Positions 18,060-27,133 of a stretch of 52,208 nucleotides of DNA are shown piece after piece. The position numbers and the translations under genes were made by a program. Positions within the stretch are counted from its first letter, which is position 1; each line of letters begins with the position of its first letter. The notes below the pieces were generated by a model. That model was not told where the DNA came from. It did no database searches and worked only from the letters and a program-made list of their open reading frames with translations. Origin of the DNA: Acidiferrobacteraceae bacterium (GTDB lineage: Bacteria; Pseudomonadota; Gammaproteobacteria; Arenicellales; UBA868); the NCBI GenBank assembly GCA_018698075.1, contig JABINT010000050.1, positions 1 through 52,208 of the forward strand, read 5' to 3'.

Positions 18060-18854
18060 TTACCCAAGGCGGCCATAAAAAGTCCTTCTTGCCGACTCAG
18101 ATAGCGAAACCCCTGGTTTTGTGTTGTACGCCAGCACTGCCAGGATACGCGTATGACCTCCCGCCACTGGCGTTACTCGGTGCATTGAGTTTCGTCCACG
18201 AAATAACACCAACGCTCCTGCGTCCATGGCAAGGGTTTTTGTGGGAGTCTCGCCGTTCAAAACCTGTTCCGTCAGTTCGTAGTTCATTTCGCCGTTGTCG
18301 GCATTTCGCACATCCTTGACATACTCAAATGTGCCGCCGCGCTCTGGCCTTTGGATCATCAGTGTGATCGCAAATGAGGAGTTATCGAAATGCCAGCCGA
18401 GTTCCTGCCCCTCGTCAGCATAGTGCAGGTTAATCGATGACAGCGGATCAGCGTATTCATAGACATCTGTAATATCGAGTACGGCGCACAGGAAATCCTG
18501 GAACGCCCCGGCGCGGTAGAGGGTGCGCAGTGCTGAGCCTCCTGGAATCTGGTCGTCAGTGATACAGCCTTTGGATGAGGTGACTTTTCGGTTTCGTGGA
18601 TGCGTCGGCGGCAATTCCGAGTCATTGGGCTTAAGGTAGATGTTGTGGCTGTCTGAGGTGAAATAGGCAAGATGTTGGTGCTCAAGGCCCTCGTCACGGA
18701 TGGTGTCGATTGCACCATCCACCAGGAAGCTCTCCAGTGTCAGGACCCCGCTGCGGTCCAGTTCAGACTTGCACTGGGCGCGAAAGCCCAGCTCCGCCAG
18801 GGGATAGCGCTTGCAATCCACAATCCCGCAAAGCGTTTCGGTGGTGTCGGTCAT
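18060..18854 (-). CDS. 2-oxoglutarate/Fe(II)-dependent oxygenase (HalD/ArpA-like) in the hut operon
   Basis: This 264-residue protein has a double-stranded beta-helix core with the complete iron facial triad: His155 and Asp157 in GWHFDNS, and His225 in NSMHRVTP. Arg236 in HTRILAVLAYN is well placed to bind the 2-oxoglutarate carboxylate. The intact Asp argues for a hydroxylase rather than a halogenase, which would have Gly or Ala there. It is the last gene of the leftward hut operon, 67 bp after hutU, so it may oxidise histidine, urocanate or an N-methylated or otherwise modified imidazole amino acid to feed the pathway. That link is inferred from position only. Confidence 0.85.
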   Translation of the reverse strand: MTDTTETLCGIVDCKRYPLAELGFRAQCKSELDRSGVLTLESFLVDGAIDTIRDEGLEHQHLAYFTSDSHNIYLKPNDSELPPTHPRNRKVTSSKGCITDDQIPGGSALRTLYRAGAFQDFLCAVLDITDVYEYADPLSSINLHYADEGQELGWHFDNSSFAITLMIQRPERGGTFEYVKDVRNADNGEMNYELTEQVLNGETPTKTLAMDAGALVLFRGRNSMHRVTPVAGGHTRILAVLAYNTKPGVSLSESARRTFYGRLG

Positions 18855-18921: not shown

Positions 18922-20610
18922 TCAGGCATCGATACTCGGAAGGTTGAGCTTATGGTCCCGGGCGCAAGCGATGGCGTCGTCATAACCTGCGTCGGCGTGG
19001 CGCATCACTCCTGTCGCGGGATCATTCCACAATACGCGAGCCAGTTTCTGGTCGGCTGATGGTGACCCATCGGCAAGAATAACCAGACCCGCATGCTGTG
19101 AATAACCGATACCAACGCCACCGCCATGATGAAAAGAGACCCAGGTCGCGCCCGATGCCGTGTTAAGTAGTGCGTTTAGAATCGGCCAGTCGGAAACCGC
19201 ATCCGACCCATCTTTCATCTGCTCTGTCTCCCGGTTAGGGCTGGCAACCGAGCCGCTGTCGAGATGATCCCGACCTATGACGATCGGCGCACTCAGTTCG
19301 CCACTGGCTACCATCTGGTTAAAGGCCCGGCCGATCCGATCGCGATCTCCCAGTCCGAGCCAGCAGATACGGCTGGGCATGCCCTGGAAGGCAATCCGGT
19401 TGCGCGCCATGTCCAGCCATTGGTGCAGTTGGGCATTATCTGGAATCAGCTCCTTGACTTTTTCATCGGTGCGAAAGATATCCTCGGGATCCCCTGACAA
19501 CGCTGCCCAGCGAAACGGCCCTATGCCCCGACAGAACAACGGGCGCACATATGCAGGGACAAAGCCGGGGTAGTCGAAGGCGTTATCAACACCGGTTTCC
19601 TGAGCCATCTGGCGAATATTGTTGCCGTAGTCGACAACCGGAATGCCTCGATTCCAAAAATCGAGCATCGCCCGAACCTGGATCGCCATAGAGTCCTTTG
19701 CCGCCGCTGCCACACCCTTGGGATCACTTTGGCGCCGGTCGGTCCATTCCGCCATCGACCAGCCGGACGGCAGATAGCCGTTTTGTGGATCGTGGGCCGA
19801 GGTTTGATCGGTCACGGCGTCTGGCTGGTATCTTGAATCAGTCTGGGAGCGTGCCGCCAGGTCCGGGAAAACATCCGCTGCATTGCCTAGAAGTCCGACC
19901 GAAATCGCGCGCCCCTCGCTGTGGGCGTTTTCGACAAGGTTTAGAGCATCGTCGATGTTGTCAGCCCAGGCGTCCAGGTAGCGGGTTTTTAGTCGAGATT
20001 CAATAGATTGCCTATTACATTCCACCGCGATCATGGAAAACCCGTGCATCGTCGCGGCCAGAGGCTGTGCACCGCCCATACCCCCGAGCCCTGCCGTTAG
20101 AATCCAGCGGCCCTTTGATGAGCCACTGAAGTGCTGGCGCGCCATCTCGGCAAAGGTCTCGTAGGTTCCCTGGACAATGCCCTGCGAGCCAATGTAAATC
20201 CAGGAGCCGGCTGTCATCTGCCCGTACATCATCAGACCACGCTGATCGAGCTCGGAGAAGTGCTCCAGCGTGGCCCAATGCGGCACCAGGTTGGAGTTGG
20301 CAATCAGAACCCGAGGGGCCTGCTCATGGGTCTTGAAAATGCCGACCGGTTTTCCGGACTGCACCAGCAAGGTCTGATCTGTCTCGAGCTCCTTGAGCGA
20401 TGTAATGATCCGGTCGAAACTGTCCCAGTCGCGAGCCGCCCGGCCAACACCGCCATAGACCACAAGCTCAGCCGGATTTTCTGCCACCTCTGGATCAAGG
20501 TTGTTCATCAGCATCCGCATAGGCGCCTCAGTACTCCAGTGTTTGCACTTGAGTTCTGTGCCGGTTGGTGCCTTGATGTGCCTTTCTGGGGCGTATCGGT
20601 TCAGTGTCAT
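18922..20610 (-). CDS. hutU: Urocanate hydratase
   Basis: This 562-residue enzyme is the second in histidine degradation: it adds water to urocanate to give imidazolonepropionate, using tightly bound NAD as an electrophile. Signature segments are [34 protein letters not shown] (NAD-binding, about residues 172-193), the catalytic Cys in [20 protein letters not shown] (about residue 410) and the C-terminal [16 protein letters not shown] chose the ATG at 20610, since the upstream in-frame ATG at 20667 adds 19 residues not typical of the family and runs into the space before the deformylase stop. It is co-directional with hutF, hutH and the deformylase homologue. Confidence 0.97.
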
Positions 20611-20676
20611 ATAACTATCGGGTTCTGTAAGGTTGAAATAACGGCTGCTGTACAGCCAGTTTGGCAAGTCTCGCGT

Positions 20677-21255
20677 TCAACTGCCATATTGGGCGACCAC
20701 CTTACCGACGTTTTCTGCCACCTGCTGCAGATGGTAACGCTCAAAATTCTCCCAGGTGACAAGACTCCTGGAATCCCCAACCCGGTCGAGAAAGAGCAAG
20801 CCATTTAGATGATCTACTTCATGTTGGTATGTGGCCGCGATCATTCCTTTTACCCGGGTCTGTATCGGGGCGCCGTTTCTATCCATTGCGCTTACGTCTA
20901 CTACCGAGTGGCGGTGAACTATGCCGCGCAGATTGGGTACGCTAAGACAGCCTTCGTAATTTTCAAACATGTCCTCGCCCACCGGAGTGAGCACCGGGTT
21001 TACCAATATAGTCAGCGGAATATTGGGACGGTAGGGGTAGCGTGGGTTGTCGCGCACCTCAATGGCGCAAATACGAAGCGATTGATGAACCTGGTTGGCC
21101 GCGAGCCCGGCACCTTTGGCTGCGCGCATGGTCTCTATCAGATCATCAATGAACTGCTGCATTTCGGCCTGTGCTAGCAAGTCCGGCGTTAGTTCGGTGG
21201 TGGGTTCCCGAAGAACAGGATCTCCAATTTGCGCGATATTTAAAAGTCGGTTCAT
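20677..21255 (-). CDS. Peptide deformylase homologue inside the hut operon (candidate hutG substitute)
   Basis: This 192-residue metalloenzyme has all three deformylase motifs: GAGLAANQ (48-55), EGCLS (101-105) with the metal-binding Cys, and QHEVDH (144-149) with the two His ligands and catalytic Glu. By family it removes formyl groups from N-formylated amines. It lies between hutH (24-bp gap) and hutU (66-bp gap), not beside fmt as the housekeeping def usually does. The HutF route yields N-formylglutamate, and no hutG is present in the window, so this enzyme is well placed to release formate and glutamate. That role is an inference; it could simply be a second peptide deformylase. The ATG at 21255 is preferred to the TTG at 21261. 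Confidence 0.88.
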   Translation of the reverse strand: MNRLLNIAQIGDPVLREPTTELTPDLLAQAEMQQFIDDLIETMRAAKGAGLAANQVHQSLRICAIEVRDNPRYPYRPNIPLTILVNPVLTPVGEDMFENYEGCLSVPNLRGIVHRHSVVDVSAMDRNGAPIQTRVKGMIAATYQHEVDHLNGLLFLDRVGDSRSLVTWENFERYHLQQVAENVGKVVAQYGS

Positions 21256-21279: not shown

Positions 21280-22815
21280 TCAGTACAAAATGGTATCCAG
21301 TGGCTGGGCGGGGAGCAACTCGGCGAGCGTACCTTGGTGAATCAAAGAGTTTGCCAGTTCGATATCAGGAGACATGATACGGTCTTCGGTCCATTCGGGA
21401 ACATGATCACGTAATGATTTAATTGCGTTTTCGATAGTGTTCGATGATTTAAGGGGTCGACGTAGAGAAATGCCCTGGGCCGCTGCCAGAAATTCGATTG
21501 CAAGGATGTGCCTTGTGTTCTCATTCATCGCGCGCAATCGCCTCGCAGCGAAAGTCGCCATGCTGACATGATCCTCCTGATTAGCCGAGGTGGGCAGGCT
21601 GTCAACACTGGCGGGGTGTGCCAGGCTTTTATTCTCGGATGTTAGTGCCGCCGCTGTTACGTGGGCAACCATGAATCCGGATTCCAAGCCGGCTCTTAAG
21701 CTAAGAAAAGGCGGCAGCTCACTGATACTTGAATCGATCAACATGGCGACACGCCGCTCGGACAGAGCACCGATCTCGGCGATTGCCAGCGCCATATTGT
21801 CAGCCGCCATGGCGACCGGCTCGGCATGAAAGTTACCGCCAGAGAGAACTTCACCGGTGTCTGGGCAGAGCAGGGGATTGTCGGACACGGCGTTGGCCTC
21901 ACGCAGAAGGATGTCCGCGACGTGGCCGAGCTGGTCGAGGCAGGCACCGAGTATCTGTGGCTGACAGCGAAGACAGTAGGGATCCTGCACCCGGTCACAG
22001 TCAGCGTGCGAGTGGTTGAGCTCGCTGTCCTTTAGCAAGGTGCGGTAAAGACGGGCTATCAGTATCTGCCCTGCTTGCCGGCGGATGTCGTGAATACGTT
22101 TGTCAAAGGGGACATAACTGCCCAGAGCCGCGTCGACGGAAATGGCCCCGGTGACGACAGCACTGGCAAGGTTCTGTTCTGCACTGAACAGCGCATCGAT
22201 GGCCAGCGCGGTGGAGATCTGGGTACCGTTCAGCAGAGCCAGCCCTTCCTTGGCTTCAAGCGTGAGCGCATCCAGCCCTACAGCTTGCAGGGCCTTGGCT
22301 GCCGGCATCGTGCTGCCGTTCCAGAAGACTTCACCTTCTCCGATCAGCGGAAGGCTCATATGGGCCAGCGGTGCAAGATCACCGGATGCCCCGACCGATC
22401 CTTTTTCCGGCACCACCGGCAGTATGTCCTGAGAAACCATCTCGATAAGCCGTTCGACTATCTGAGGTCTGACACCGGAGTACCCCTGAGCCAGGCTCAT
22501 CGTCTTGAGTATCAGCGCCAGACGAACTGTTTGCGGTGCCAGCGAATTGCCAACGCCAGCGGCGTGAGATCGCACAAGGTTGCGTTGCAGTGTAGACAGA
22601 TCTGCCGCGTCGATTCGCGTTCGGGCCATTTTGCCAAACCCGGTATTAATGCCGTAGGCGGGTGCTGCTTGCTGAAGTACCGCTTGGAGTATGGCGTGGC
22701 TCTTTCGTACTTGCTCCCACGCGGTATTGGGTATGTCAATCACGCAGGGGCTCGCCCCCAGGTTCCTCAGATTATCAAGTGTGAGCTTGGCTGGAATGAG
22801 TTTTATTGTCTGCAC
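21280..22815 (-). CDS. hutH: Histidine ammonia-lyase
   Basis: This 511-residue enzyme makes urocanate and ammonia from L-histidine. The Ala-Ser-Gly triad that forms the MIO prosthetic group is at residues 143-145 within GSVGASGDLAPLAH. Other active-site segments are YGINTGFGKM (54-63), NFHAEPVAMAADNMA and the C-terminal TSANQEDHVSMA. The start is GTG at 22815, with AGGAG 7 bp upstream; no ATG fits. It is the second gene of the leftward operon, 29 bp after hutF. A decayed relative lies on the other strand at 25360-25857. Confidence 0.97.
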   Translation of the reverse strand: MQTIKLIPAKLTLDNLRNLGASPCVIDIPNTAWEQVRKSHAILQAVLQQAAPAYGINTGFGKMARTRIDAADLSTLQRNLVRSHAAGVGNSLAPQTVRLALILKTMSLAQGYSGVRPQIVERLIEMVSQDILPVVPEKGSVGASGDLAPLAHMSLPLIGEGEVFWNGSTMPAAKALQAVGLDALTLEAKEGLALLNGTQISTALAIDALFSAEQNLASAVVTGAISVDAALGSYVPFDKRIHDIRRQAGQILIARLYRTLLKDSELNHSHADCDRVQDPYCLRCQPQILGACLDQLGHVADILLREANAVSDNPLLCPDTGEVLSGGNFHAEPVAMAADNMALAIAEIGALSERRVAMLIDSSISELPPFLSLRAGLESGFMVAHVTAAALTSENKSLAHPASVDSLPTSANQEDHVSMATFAARRLRAMNENTRHILAIEFLAAAQGISLRRPLKSSNTIENAIKSLRDHVPEWTEDRIMSPDIELANSLIHQGTLAELLPAQPLDTILY

Positions 22816-22844: not shown

Positions 22845-24242
22845 TTAGGCGTTGTTCAGCATTGCGATAACCTGTCGAAACGGACCACTGGCACTTTCGC
22901 GAAGCGGGTGGATGCCGTCGCGCACAACGTGCCGTCCGCCGACGATGACGTTACGCACGGCATTGTTCGGCCCAGAAAAGATCCAGCTGTCGAGAATCTG
23001 ATCCGGTGTGCGCGACGCAAATTCGCTGTGCTCATGGTCAATTTCAATGAGATCGCCGCGGGCCCCTGAAACCAGCCCCGAAGACTTTTCTCCAAGAGCC
23101 CGGGCGCCGCCGGAAATAGCGGTTGTGATCAACGCACGACCGTTACTGCCGGCATCATCTGGAATCATCACTGTTCGTCTTTGCAGGCTGAGCCTCTGAA
23201 CGTACTCTAGCAGTCTTAGCTCTTCTGCCGGGCAAGTACATATCTGGCTGTCGGAGCCCACACCGAGGCGGCCGCCGTCTGTCAGAAACTGAGCTGCCGG
23301 AAAAATACCATCGCCCAGATTCGCTTCTGTTGTCGGACAAAGGCCAACAGTTGCGCCGCTTTTGACAATACAGTCCAGTTCACCGGAGTCGACATGTGTG
23401 GCATGTATCAGACACCACTGGTCAGTTACATCACATTGATCGTATAGCCACGCCACCGGTCGAACCCCATTCAGCGCCAGGCACTCGGCTACTTCGCGGG
23501 CCTGTTCGGCAACATGGATATGTACAGGCGCGTCCTTGATAAGGCTGCCCGCATCCTCAAGGGTCGCCGACAGGACTTCTGGGGCGACGGCGCGCAGCGA
23601 GTGCGCTGCGAAACCGACAGACCGGTCGGGGTTGTCCACGCACAGTGAGTCGCAGGCCTGCAGCAGTTTAAGATAACTCTCGGGCGTGTTGGCAAAGCGG
23701 CGTTGCGTATCTTGTACCGGATCGTTGTTAAAACCACCTCGGCAGTAAAGAACGGGGAGCAGCGTAATAGCGATGCCGACCTCGGATGCGGCTTCGAGAA
23801 GCCTGGCAGATAGCTCACTGCAATCGCGATAAGGATCGCCACCAGGCTGATGGTGCAGATAGTGGAACTCGGCTACCGAGGTATATCCGCTTTGCAGCAT
23901 GCCAGTATAGAGATAACGCGCGACAGTTTGCAGTTGGTCCGGGTCCAGTTGCGCGTTGGCACGGTACATAAGGTCACGCCAGCCCCAGAAGTCATCCTGC
24001 CCGGCAATCCTGTGCTCGGTCAGTCCCGCAATCGCTTTTTGATGGGCGTGGGAGTGCAGATTGGGTAATCCCGCGATGACGATGCCATTTAAGGAAAGGT
24101 CGGTGGCGCCAGCATTATTGCTCGTGATAGCTGCTATCCGACCGGTTTGGTCAAGCTCAATAACGCAGTTATCCTCCCAGCCTGATGGGGTCAGCGCTTT
24201 TGCACAGCGGATGCTGGTCAATCGGGGACCGGGCGAAGTCAT
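22845..24242 (-). CDS. hutF: Formimidoylglutamate deiminase
   Basis: This 465-residue amidohydrolase has the metal-binding LPNLHSHAHQKAI (HxH, about residues 57-69), HIHVAEQ (about 236-242), a later His in IHATHVDSGE, and the Asp in LGVGSDSQ. The size and the WGWRDLMYR segment fit HutF, which converts N-formimidoylglutamate to N-formylglutamate and ammonia, rather than HutI or a guanine deaminase. With HutF the next step requires an N-formylglutamate deformylase (HutG), which is not recognisable in the window. It is the first gene of the leftward operon and diverges from a PhyH-family gene across 258 bp. Confidence 0.92.
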   Translation of the reverse strand: MTSPGPRLTSIRCAKALTPSGWEDNCVIELDQTGRIAAITSNNAGATDLSLNGIVIAGLPNLHSHAHQKAIAGLTEHRIAGQDDFWGWRDLMYRANAQLDPDQLQTVARYLYTGMLQSGYTSVAEFHYLHHQPGGDPYRDCSELSARLLEAASEVGIAITLLPVLYCRGGFNNDPVQDTQRRFANTPESYLKLLQACDSLCVDNPDRSVGFAAHSLRAVAPEVLSATLEDAGSLIKDAPVHIHVAEQAREVAECLALNGVRPVAWLYDQCDVTDQWCLIHATHVDSGELDCIVKSGATVGLCPTTEANLGDGIFPAAQFLTDGGRLGVGSDSQICTCPAEELRLLEYVQRLSLQRRTVMIPDDAGSNGRALITTAISGGARALGEKSSGLVSGARGDLIEIDHEHSEFASRTPDQILDSWIFSGPNNAVRNVIVGGRHVVRDGIHPLRESASGPFRQVIAMLNNA

Positions 24243-24500: not shown

Positions 24501-25328
24501 ATGACCAGTAAAGAAACGGTGCTCTTGTCGGATCACGCCATAGACAGTTTCCAAAAAGATGGGGTGGTGCTGTTGACCGACCTGTTCAAACCCTGGGTAG
24601 AAGGGGTGCAGACGGCTATCGAAGAGAACAAAGCGAGTCCGAGTTGGCGTGAGCGAACCTATCGTCCGGACCAAGGAGAAGGTGCAGAGTTTTTTCAGGA
24701 CTATTGCGTCTGGTCAAATTTCAGGGGCTACCGCGCCCTGGTTGTTGAATCACCGATGGCCGAGATTGCCGCAAAACTGATGCGCTCAAAAACCGCCCGG
24801 GTTTTTCATGACCATATACTGGTAAAAGAGCCCGGCAATTCAGTAACAACTCCATGGCATCATGATCAGCCGTACTATATTGTTGATGGAGAGCAGTCTG
24901 TCAGTTTCTGGGTGCCCATCGATCCGGTGCCTCGGGAGCGTAGCGTCGAATACGTTGCCACCTCCCACAAATGGGGTAAGGAGTTCAGGCCAAAGCGTTT
25001 TGATGGCACCGATCTGTACACTGAAGATACTTCCGAAACGACACCGGACGTTGAAAAGAATCGGGAAGAGTTCGACATCCGTGGCTGGGACATGCAACCG
25101 GGCGATGCAATAGCCTTTAGCTTCAGAACCCTGCATGGCGCCCCGGCCAACACGTCCAATGATCGTCGCCGGGCCATATCGATCCGCTGGGTGGGAGACG
25201 ATGCGCGATTCGTAGTCCGCCCAGGAAAAACGTCACCTTTTTTCCCAGAACTGGAGTATGAAGATGGGCAACCTTTTGCTGGTGATCAGTTTCCAGTGCT
25301 GTACCCGCGAGGGCAAAGCCACGAATGA
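24501..25328 (+). CDS. Phytanoyl-CoA dioxygenase (PhyH) family 2OG-Fe(II) oxygenase
   Basis: This 275-residue oxygenase has iron ligands His120 and Asp122 in PWHHDQPYY, a distal His212 in RTLHGAP and a 2-oxoglutarate-binding Arg shortly after (NDRRRAISIRW, about residue 223). PhyH-family bacterial proteins hydroxylate many small molecules, not only acyl-CoA. It is divergent from hutF and upstream of a broken ammonia-lyase and hutI. It might open a route for a modified histidine, or be a remnant of a pathway whose lyase has been lost. The substrate cannot be told from sequence. Confidence 0.87.
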   Translation: MTSKETVLLSDHAIDSFQKDGVVLLTDLFKPWVEGVQTAIEENKASPSWRERTYRPDQGEGAEFFQDYCVWSNFRGYRALVVESPMAEIAAKLMRSKTARVFHDHILVKEPGNSVTTPWHHDQPYYIVDGEQSVSFWVPIDPVPRERSVEYVATSHKWGKEFRPKRFDGTDLYTEDTSETTPDVEKNREEFDIRGWDMQPGDAIAFSFRTLHGAPANTSNDRRRAISIRWVGDDARFVVRPGKTSPFFPELEYEDGQPFAGDQFPVLYPRGQSHE

Positions 25329-25879: not shown

Positions 25880-27133
25880 ATGCTTTTCGAACCCCCAGTG
25901 AAGAAGGCATCAGTGAGGCTTTGGGAAAATGCGCGGGTAGTCTGTATGGCAGGTACGCTGCCAGGGGCCGATGTCGTCAATAATGGCGCATTGCTGACTC
26001 ACGAAGACAGAATAATCGCAGTAGGTAGCGCAGAAGAGGTTCTCGCACATCCGTCTGCGACAAATGCCAGCATGCTGGATCGCATCGATTGTAAGCATCA
26101 ACTGCTATTACCCGGTTTCATCGATTGCCATACGCATCTGGTATATGCGGGCGACCGTTCGCGCGAATTTGAGCAGCGCCTTGAAGGTGTGAGCTATGAG
26201 GAGATTGCCAGGCAGGGTGGCGGGATACGCTCAACGGTAAAAGACACTCGGAAGAGCGCACAAGAAGATCTGTTAAAGGGGGCGCTAGGTCGGGCAAAGC
26301 GCATGTGCTCGGAAGGGGTAACGACTATTGAAGTTAAAGGAGGCTATGGGCTCACTTTGGAGTGTGAGCAGAAGATGTTACGTGTGGCCCGCTCTTTAGA
26401 GACCGTTTTGCCTGTTTCGGTTCACACCACTTTTCTGGGAGCGCATGCGGTGCCCGAAGAATTTGAGGGACGCAGCGATGATTATATTGATCTGGTGTGT
26501 TCTGTTATGTTGCCGGAAATCGCAAAAGAAGGTCTTGCAGACAGTGTCGATGCATTTTGTGAAAACATTGCATTTAGCGAGCCCCAGGTTCGCGCGGTCT
26601 TCGAAAAAGCACATGCTCTTGGATTGCCGGTACGTCTACATGCGGATCAGTTAAGCAATAGTCACGGCGCCAGATTGGCTGCAGAATTCAGTGCGCTCTC
26701 TGCAGACCACCTGGAATACACCGATGAAGCAGGGGTACGAGCCTTGAAGCAGGCCGGTACGGTAGCCGTACTGTTACCCGGGGCGTTTTATTTTCTTAAA
26801 GAACAACAACGCCCGCCGGTGAATCTTTTTCGAAAGCATCAGGTTCCAATGGCATTGGCGAGCGACTGCAACCCGGGCAGTTCACCGGTGGAGTCACTGT
26901 TACTGATTTTGAATATGGGATGTGTTCTGTTTGGCCTGACGCCGCGCGAAGCGGTAGCCGGGGTCACGGTGCACGCAGCAAAGGCCTTGGGTTATGCTGA
27001 CCGTGGCGTTCTGGCTGCGGGCAAGCGTGCTGATTTTGCCGTATTTGAGGTTGAGTCCCTCGCACAACTTTGTTACCCGGTAGGCACAAGAGAGCCGTCA
27101 ATGGTGGTGCAGGCAGGTAATCTGGTTTCATAA
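25880..27133 (+). CDS. hutI: Imidazolonepropionase
   Basis: This 417-residue amidohydrolase catalyses the third step of histidine breakdown, opening imidazolone-5-propionate to N-formimidoylglutamate. Visible signatures are LWENARVVCM at the N terminus, the metal-binding LLPGFIDCHTHLVYAGDRSREFEQRL (in part: DCHTHLVYAG, about residues 78-87), EVKGGYGL, HTTFLGAHAVPEEF, LHADQLSN and ALASDCNPGSSP. It is on the opposite strand from the other hut genes, behind the lyase remnant. I chose the ATG at 25880; the GTG at 25898 would also keep the conserved part. Neither start has a strong ribosome-binding site. Confidence 0.96.
   Translation: MLFEPPVKKASVRLWENARVVCMAGTLPGADVVNNGALLTHEDRIIAVGSAEEVLAHPSATNASMLDRIDCKHQLLLPGFIDCHTHLVYAGDRSREFEQRLEGVSYEEIARQGGGIRSTVKDTRKSAQEDLLKGALGRAKRMCSEGVTTIEVKGGYGLTLECEQKMLRVARSLETVLPVSVHTTFLGAHAVPEEFEGRSDDYIDLVCSVMLPEIAKEGLADSVDAFCENIAFSEPQVRAVFEKAHALGLPVRLHADQLSNSHGARLAAEFSALSADHLEYTDEAGVRALKQAGTVAVLLPGAFYFLKEQQRPPVNLFRKHQVPMALASDCNPGSSPVESLLLILNMGCVLFGLTPREAVAGVTVHAAKALGYADRGVLAAGKRADFAVFEVESLAQLCYPVGTREPSMVVQAGNLVS

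Follow-up and report, generated by a model that had tools for sequence, protein, structure and literature searches.

A peptide deformylase-family protein encoded in hut operons as a predicted N-formylglutamate deformylase in bacteria without HutG

Which enzyme deformylates N-formylglutamate in bacteria that make this compound with HutF and lack HutG? The question is raised by a stretch of 52,208 nucleotides from an Acidiferrobacteraceae bacterium (contig JABINT010000050.1; hereafter the window), in which a gene of the peptide deformylase (PDF) family lies between hutH and hutU in a minus-strand operon with the order hutF-hutH-PDF-hutU. The genes concerned are as follows.

18922–20667, minus strand: hutU, urocanate hydratase (TIGR01228, 931 bits, cut-off 375); ATG at about 20610, upstream TTG at 20667
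20677–21255, minus strand: hut-type PDF-family gene, proposed N-formylglutamate deformylase; 192 amino acids with GAGLAANQ, EGCLS and HEVDH, CD-loop RYPYRP and Thr142
21280–22815, minus strand: hutH, histidine ammonia-lyase (TIGR01225, 671 bits, cut-off 539)
22845–24242, minus strand: hutF, formimidoylglutamate deiminase (TIGR02022, 565 bits, cut-off 413); its product, N-formylglutamate, is the proposed PDF substrate
25880–27133, plus strand: hutI, imidazolonepropionase, divergent from the hutF operon (TIGR01224, 462 bits, cut-off 298)

All four hut genes of the window score above curated NCBIfam equivalog cut-offs. A preliminary description of this DNA had reported a complete deformylase amid hut genes, with operon-like gaps and no hutG in the window, and these points held: the three catalytic motifs are intact, the gaps are 29 bp between hutF and hutH, 24 bp between hutH and the PDF gene, and 66 bp between the PDF gene and the ATG of hutU (9 bp if hutU begins at the upstream TTG), and a whole-genome search placed the single FGase-family match of this genome on another contig. 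The PDF gene was taken to start at the ATG at 21255, an alternative upstream TTG extending it to 21261. In a promoter scan, sites were no commoner than expected by chance, and terminator-like sites numbered 11 against 6.8 expected, so that the operon structure rests on spacing and conservation. The arrangement of hut genes and PDF is not due to chance, since it is seen again in related genomes and, with other gene orders, in another phylum.

The encoded protein is plainly a member of the PDF family. It matches Pfam PF01327 (155.9 bits over positions 5–161, cut-off 22.8) and NCBIfam TIGR00079 (118 bits, cut-off 104), contains the three motifs required of the superfamily (I, GxGLAAxQ; II, EGCLS; III, of HExxDH type, here HEVDH), and its AlphaFold2 model (mean pLDDT 95) adopts the PDF fold, with the Leptospira PDF 1sv2 as the best structural match (TM 0.87/0.97, 0.9 Å rmsd, 38% identity). 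It is not HutG by sequence, as it matches PDF families only and not PF05013 or TIGR02017. Nor is it the housekeeping def, since the def adjoining fmt is a different gene and housekeeping PDFs form a group of their own (SH-aLRT 99), or a class Ib PDF, for which Arg141 and Val142 would be expected; it has A141 and T142 and falls in a separate clade. Its genomic context, with HutF present, a hut operon and no HutG, is the one expected of an N-formylglutamate deformylase (EC 3.5.1.68).

Two observations would have refuted a role as a replacement for HutG, namely that this was the only def in the genome or that a hutG lay elsewhere, and neither was made. The source genome contains another def, a canonical one, on contig 23; it lies immediately upstream of fmt, the usual position of a housekeeping def. 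The sole FGase-family gene of this genome, on contig 160 among unrelated neighbours, encodes a protein that scores 151 bits against Pfam PF05013 and 33 bits against TIGR02017 (cut-off 278.75), indicative of a distant paralogue, and comparable low-scoring FGase paralogues are also carried by HutF-less sister genomes (G004, G005, G007 and G016). On the strength of the score, the neighbours and these sister paralogues, the contig-160 gene was ruled out as the missing HutG. The absence of HutG from the source genome is weak evidence on its own because the assembly is 89% complete; the distribution across relatives does not depend on it.

To establish that distribution, the source genome and 60 relatives were searched for the hut-type PDF (called at E-values of 1e-46 or better, other PDFs being weaker), HutF, HutG and HutU. 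This revealed a complementary pattern. The hut-type PDF was observed in 21 of the 61 genomes, and HutF lies above its cut-off in all 21 (Fisher p = 2e-7, a descriptive value given that the genomes are related). When we considered the 28 genomes that have both HutF and HutU, 19 carry the PDF and 9 carry HutG (8 above the cut-off, together with G045, where it is in fragments), while none has both and none has neither. HutF without PDF or HutG was found in G008, G012, G015, G026, G048 and G034 (where hutF is truncated at a contig end), and HutU is also missing from these genomes, except for a remnant in G015, in which the stretch between the hutU remnant and hutF is partly N. G012 retains a 138-bp piece of hutH after hutF, and this piece directly adjoins the genes found beyond hutU in the window, so that a deletion took out hutH through hutU, and the PDF was lost together with them. 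Within genus g15, G041 and G059 have HutF and the PDF; G049 and G054 have HutU and neither HutF nor the PDF. G049 encodes formimidoylglutamase, an enzyme whose route does without a deformylase. The slot after hutH is occupied by the PDF in G041 and G059, and by hutG in G035. It should be borne in mind that these counts are not independent, as the genomes are mutually related and mostly incomplete metagenome assemblies.

The preliminary description had confined the idea of a replacement to this one locus. The replacement itself is supported by our analysis; the scope was too narrow, since the family is found in several phyla. A scan of GTDB species genomes yielded at least 80 hut-type PDF loci and 468 candidate relatives, and Myxococcota predominate among the matches listed, which also include some Actinomycetota and a single SAR324. 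(Two of the PDF proteins, at L160 and L159, are identical and labelled Phycisphaerales and Myxococcales, respectively; the Phycisphaerales one is probably mislabelled or contaminated.) In Actinomycetota we found the operon order hutU-hutF-PDF-hutI-x-hutH. When 296 genomes were sampled from the class of the Acidimicrobiia-like genome G444, the hut-type PDF was present in 36 genomes at 37 places, of which 36 loci were examined (35 places beyond that of G444 itself and the second place of G742). The PDF lies within a hut cluster in 35 of these 36 loci, L346 being the exception, and in 34 of them it is no more than 80 bp from a hut gene; the clusters show at least five gene orders, and five loci are bare hutF-PDF pairs. 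A HutG query on the loci of this class gave no match. More broadly, none of 25 distant PDF genomes has HutG above its cut-off, while all 25 match HutF with 361 bits or more (above the curated cut-off in 12 and below it in 13). The inference is weaker for Myxococcota, where a search for conserved neighbours of the PDF gene found no link to hut genes, the PDF standing alone, and where FGase-like proteins exist (70–142 bits to TIGR02017).

Several other genes recur in these neighbourhoods. The window encodes a PhyH-family 2-oxoglutarate oxygenase divergent from hutF (24501–25328, plus strand), whose best solved relatives are MysH (131 bits), and PhyH-like genes are found again beside hut or PDF genes in L100–L103, L312 and L321; this recurrence suggests that an oxidative step feeds in a histidine derivative. 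Downstream of hutU lies a gene for a HalD-like 2-oxoglutarate oxygenase (18060–18854, minus strand), related to lysine halogenases/hydroxylases, and in G043 (L051, 6555–7355) a 60% identical HalD-like gene begins at the end of the hut-type PDF gene, and hut genes are absent from its vicinity. Sister genomes carry another HutH-family gene, a distant one with about 30% identity to hutH (L145, 611–2074; also L148, L149 and L150), flanked by hutI and the PhyH gene; the window has no such gene at that place. In G022, contigs 72 and 84 (L098 and L099) contain two hutI-PhyH-hutF-hutH blocks in one assembly, which represent either a duplication or a mixed bin. Finally, a gene for a fatty-acid-desaturase-like membrane protein, recognised by eye, recurs in or beside Acidimicrobiia hut operons (L281, 5001–5945, minus strand; L312, 10794–11711, plus strand). 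In the G444 operon, the gene lying between hutI and hutH was considered as a rival deformylase and rejected, since it likewise reads by eye as such a membrane protein and not as an amidohydrolase.

Turning to the protein itself, all hut-type sequences are observed to form one clade in a tree of 105 PDFs (SH-aLRT 99, stem 0.82), distinct from both class Ib and housekeeping PDFs, with the members from hut operons scattered over three separate parts of it. This tree came from a quick search without bootstrap and does not include the later Acidimicrobiia loci. Comparison of 130 hut-type sequences, many of them near-copies so that percentages are not independent, with 37 class Ib PDFs revealed a set of substitutions, near-invariant at positions 75–77 and 142. 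At CD-loop positions 75–77 the hut type has Y75 (100%), K/R76 (99%) and P77 (100%), where class Ib has mostly D/E, A/V and E/D; residue 142 is Thr in 99% of the hut type versus Val in 97% of class Ib, residue 141 is mostly G, A or C versus Arg in 97%, and residue 97 is Phe in 76% versus Glu in 57%. Q33, D37, R126 and a C-terminal TW..F are further features of the hut type. A clade-specific basic residue had been predicted for such an enzyme, and K/R76, present in 129 of the 130 hut-type sequences where class Ib mostly has A, V, E or M, fulfils this prediction, although a contact between it and the substrate is only an inference. Residues V71, L125, E129, Y167, V171 and H174 make up the S1' pocket of a streptococcal PDF (PMC5071857); by motif offsets, rather than by measured distance, they map to A49, F97, E101, M138, T142 and H145 of the window protein. 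In the Leptospira PDF, the enlarged CD loop is mobile, with open and closed forms (PMC3101196), and the 75–77 signature falls within this loop in the alignment. Judged by sequence, and by loop homology in the case of K/R76, invariant differences of the hut type, RYPY(K/R)P and the change of Val to Thr in the S1' pocket, are thus located near the substrate site.

Taken together, N-formylglutamate hydrolysis is the simplest account of these data, because the hut-type PDF depends on HutF, excludes HutG, is lost jointly with other hut genes, belongs to hut operons in several gene orders and phyla, and has a changed pocket. We are highly confident that the hut-type PDF belongs to the Hut pathway in general. 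That the window protein replaces the non-homologous HutG as an N-formylglutamate deformylase, we hold with a probability of about 0.87; its substrate and kinetics are inferred, without enzymatic data. Very probably, the multi-phylum subfamily as a whole is a dedicated N-formylglutamate deformylase that completes the HutF route in bacteria without HutG, its activity again being an inference.

A metal-dependent deformylase of the PDF fold would, on this model, have been re-specialised to convert free N-formyl-L-glutamate into L-glutamate and formate, a reaction that would conclude histidine degradation by the HutH-HutU-HutI-HutF route and is normally performed by HutG, a member of a different family (PF05013/COG3741). 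The metal would be held by Cys103 of EGCLS and by His145 and His149 of HEVDH, with Glu146 as the general base, and the formyl carbon would be attacked in the manner common to PDFs. For the substrate's glutamate side chain, the predicted site is the S1' pocket, in the usual place of methionine; Thr142, which replaces the Val of class Ib, would make this pocket more polar, and Lys/Arg76, invariant in the CD loop RYPY[K/R]P, may pair with a substrate carboxylate. As deformylation of N-formyl amines is already the chemistry of the fold, change would be needed only in recognition of the side chain and the alpha-carboxylate. To our knowledge, free formyl-amino acids are poor substrates of characterised PDFs, and recognition of a free alpha-carboxylate must therefore have evolved.

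A second peptide deformylase of the ordinary kind, with nascent formyl-Met proteins as substrates (for example a resistant or condition-specific isozyme) and present in the hut operon incidentally, would likewise have all catalytic motifs intact, the PDF fold and a peptide deformylase call from NCBIfam and Pfam, and two PDFs are common among bacteria. A housekeeping spare would, however, have no reason to follow HutF and exclude HutG, and neither the repeated clustering with hut genes across gene orders and phyla nor the near-invariant pocket and loop substitutions speak for an incidental guest, so that we give this explanation little credence. A bifunctional enzyme with useful rates on both N-formylglutamate and formyl-Met proteins is unlikely rather than excluded: the catalytic core is unchanged, and in G009 (assembly 84% complete) the hut-type PDF is the only PDF found, but each of the 25 distant PDF genomes has two or three PDFs, and most relatives also carry at least one besides the hut type.

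It is also conceivable that N-formylglutamate is hydrolysed by another, unrecognised deformylase, for example the contig-160 FGase, and that the PDF acts elsewhere in the pathway, perhaps with a modified histidine or urocanate derivative as its substrate. The source genome does hold that PF05013 protein, and 2-oxoglutarate oxygenase genes recur near PDF or hut genes (HalD-like in G000 and G043; PhyH-like in G028, G058, L312 and L321). Yet the FGase paralogue is shared with HutF-less sisters, a TIGR02017 search of the PDF genomes G028, G032, G041 and G059 gave no match, and a PF05013 protein sought in six Acidimicrobiia-like genomes was absent from all six; moreover, most hut clusters with the PDF have no such oxygenase, whereas hutF is present in nearly all of them. 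We therefore give this possibility even less weight than that of an ordinary second PDF.

If the hut-type PDF does hydrolyse N-formylglutamate, it would represent a new solution for this step of histidine catabolism and would close an apparent gap in the pathway of marine gammaproteobacteria, Acidimicrobiia-like Actinomycetota and, perhaps, Myxococcota. We know of no earlier catabolic role of the PDF fold, of which this would be the first, and it would show that a protein-maturation enzyme targeted by antibiotics can give rise to a catabolic amidohydrolase. K/R76 and T142 would then constitute a natural specificity switch open to mutational testing. The annotation of a subfamily now named peptide deformylase (at least 80 loci and 468 candidate relatives) would be corrected, and counts of def made with Pfam or the tested NCBIfam models would overstate drug-target redundancy in these bacteria. 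The preliminary description had suggested that such an activity in a PDF-fold protein within a hut operon would be new; a literature search limited to open-licence PMC papers found no report linking a PDF to hut genes or a hut operon.

How, then, does the hut-type PDF compare with known systems? Class Ib PDFs (Pseudomonas aeruginosa 6jfa, Burkholderia 5kob and Leptospira interrogans 1sv2) share its fold (38% identity, about 1 Å rmsd), its three catalytic motifs and its enlarged CD loop; the hut type differs in forming a separate clade, in having RYPY(K/R)P for RYP(D/E)(A/V)E, Thr142 for Val and Gly/Ala/Cys141 for Arg, in its longer conserved C-terminus and in tracking hut genes. Three routes to glutamate have been described, a formiminotransferase route among them (PMC3223725), as have two HutG alternatives, COG3741 and COG0010 (PMC5343134). 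The latter, formimidoylglutamase (HutG2, TIGR01227), is similarly an alternative ending of the pathway (PMC5343134), but it acts on formimidoylglutamate, releases formamide and bypasses HutF, and the HutF-less operons of G049 and G054 are without the hut-type PDF. The COG0624 'alternative N-formylglutamate deformylase' (PMC3223725) was an earlier proposal for the same step from an unrelated family, and the Streptomyces avermitilis protein so predicted had no deformylase activity when tested (PMC3223725). HutG itself (TIGR02017, PF05013, COG3741) is predicted to share the reaction and occupies the same slot after hutH (G035 versus G041), while belonging to a different protein family and excluding the hut-type PDF in the genomes tested. 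Set against these systems, the hut-type PDF is a non-homologous replacement in a known pathway, with a known fold and a new predicted activity.
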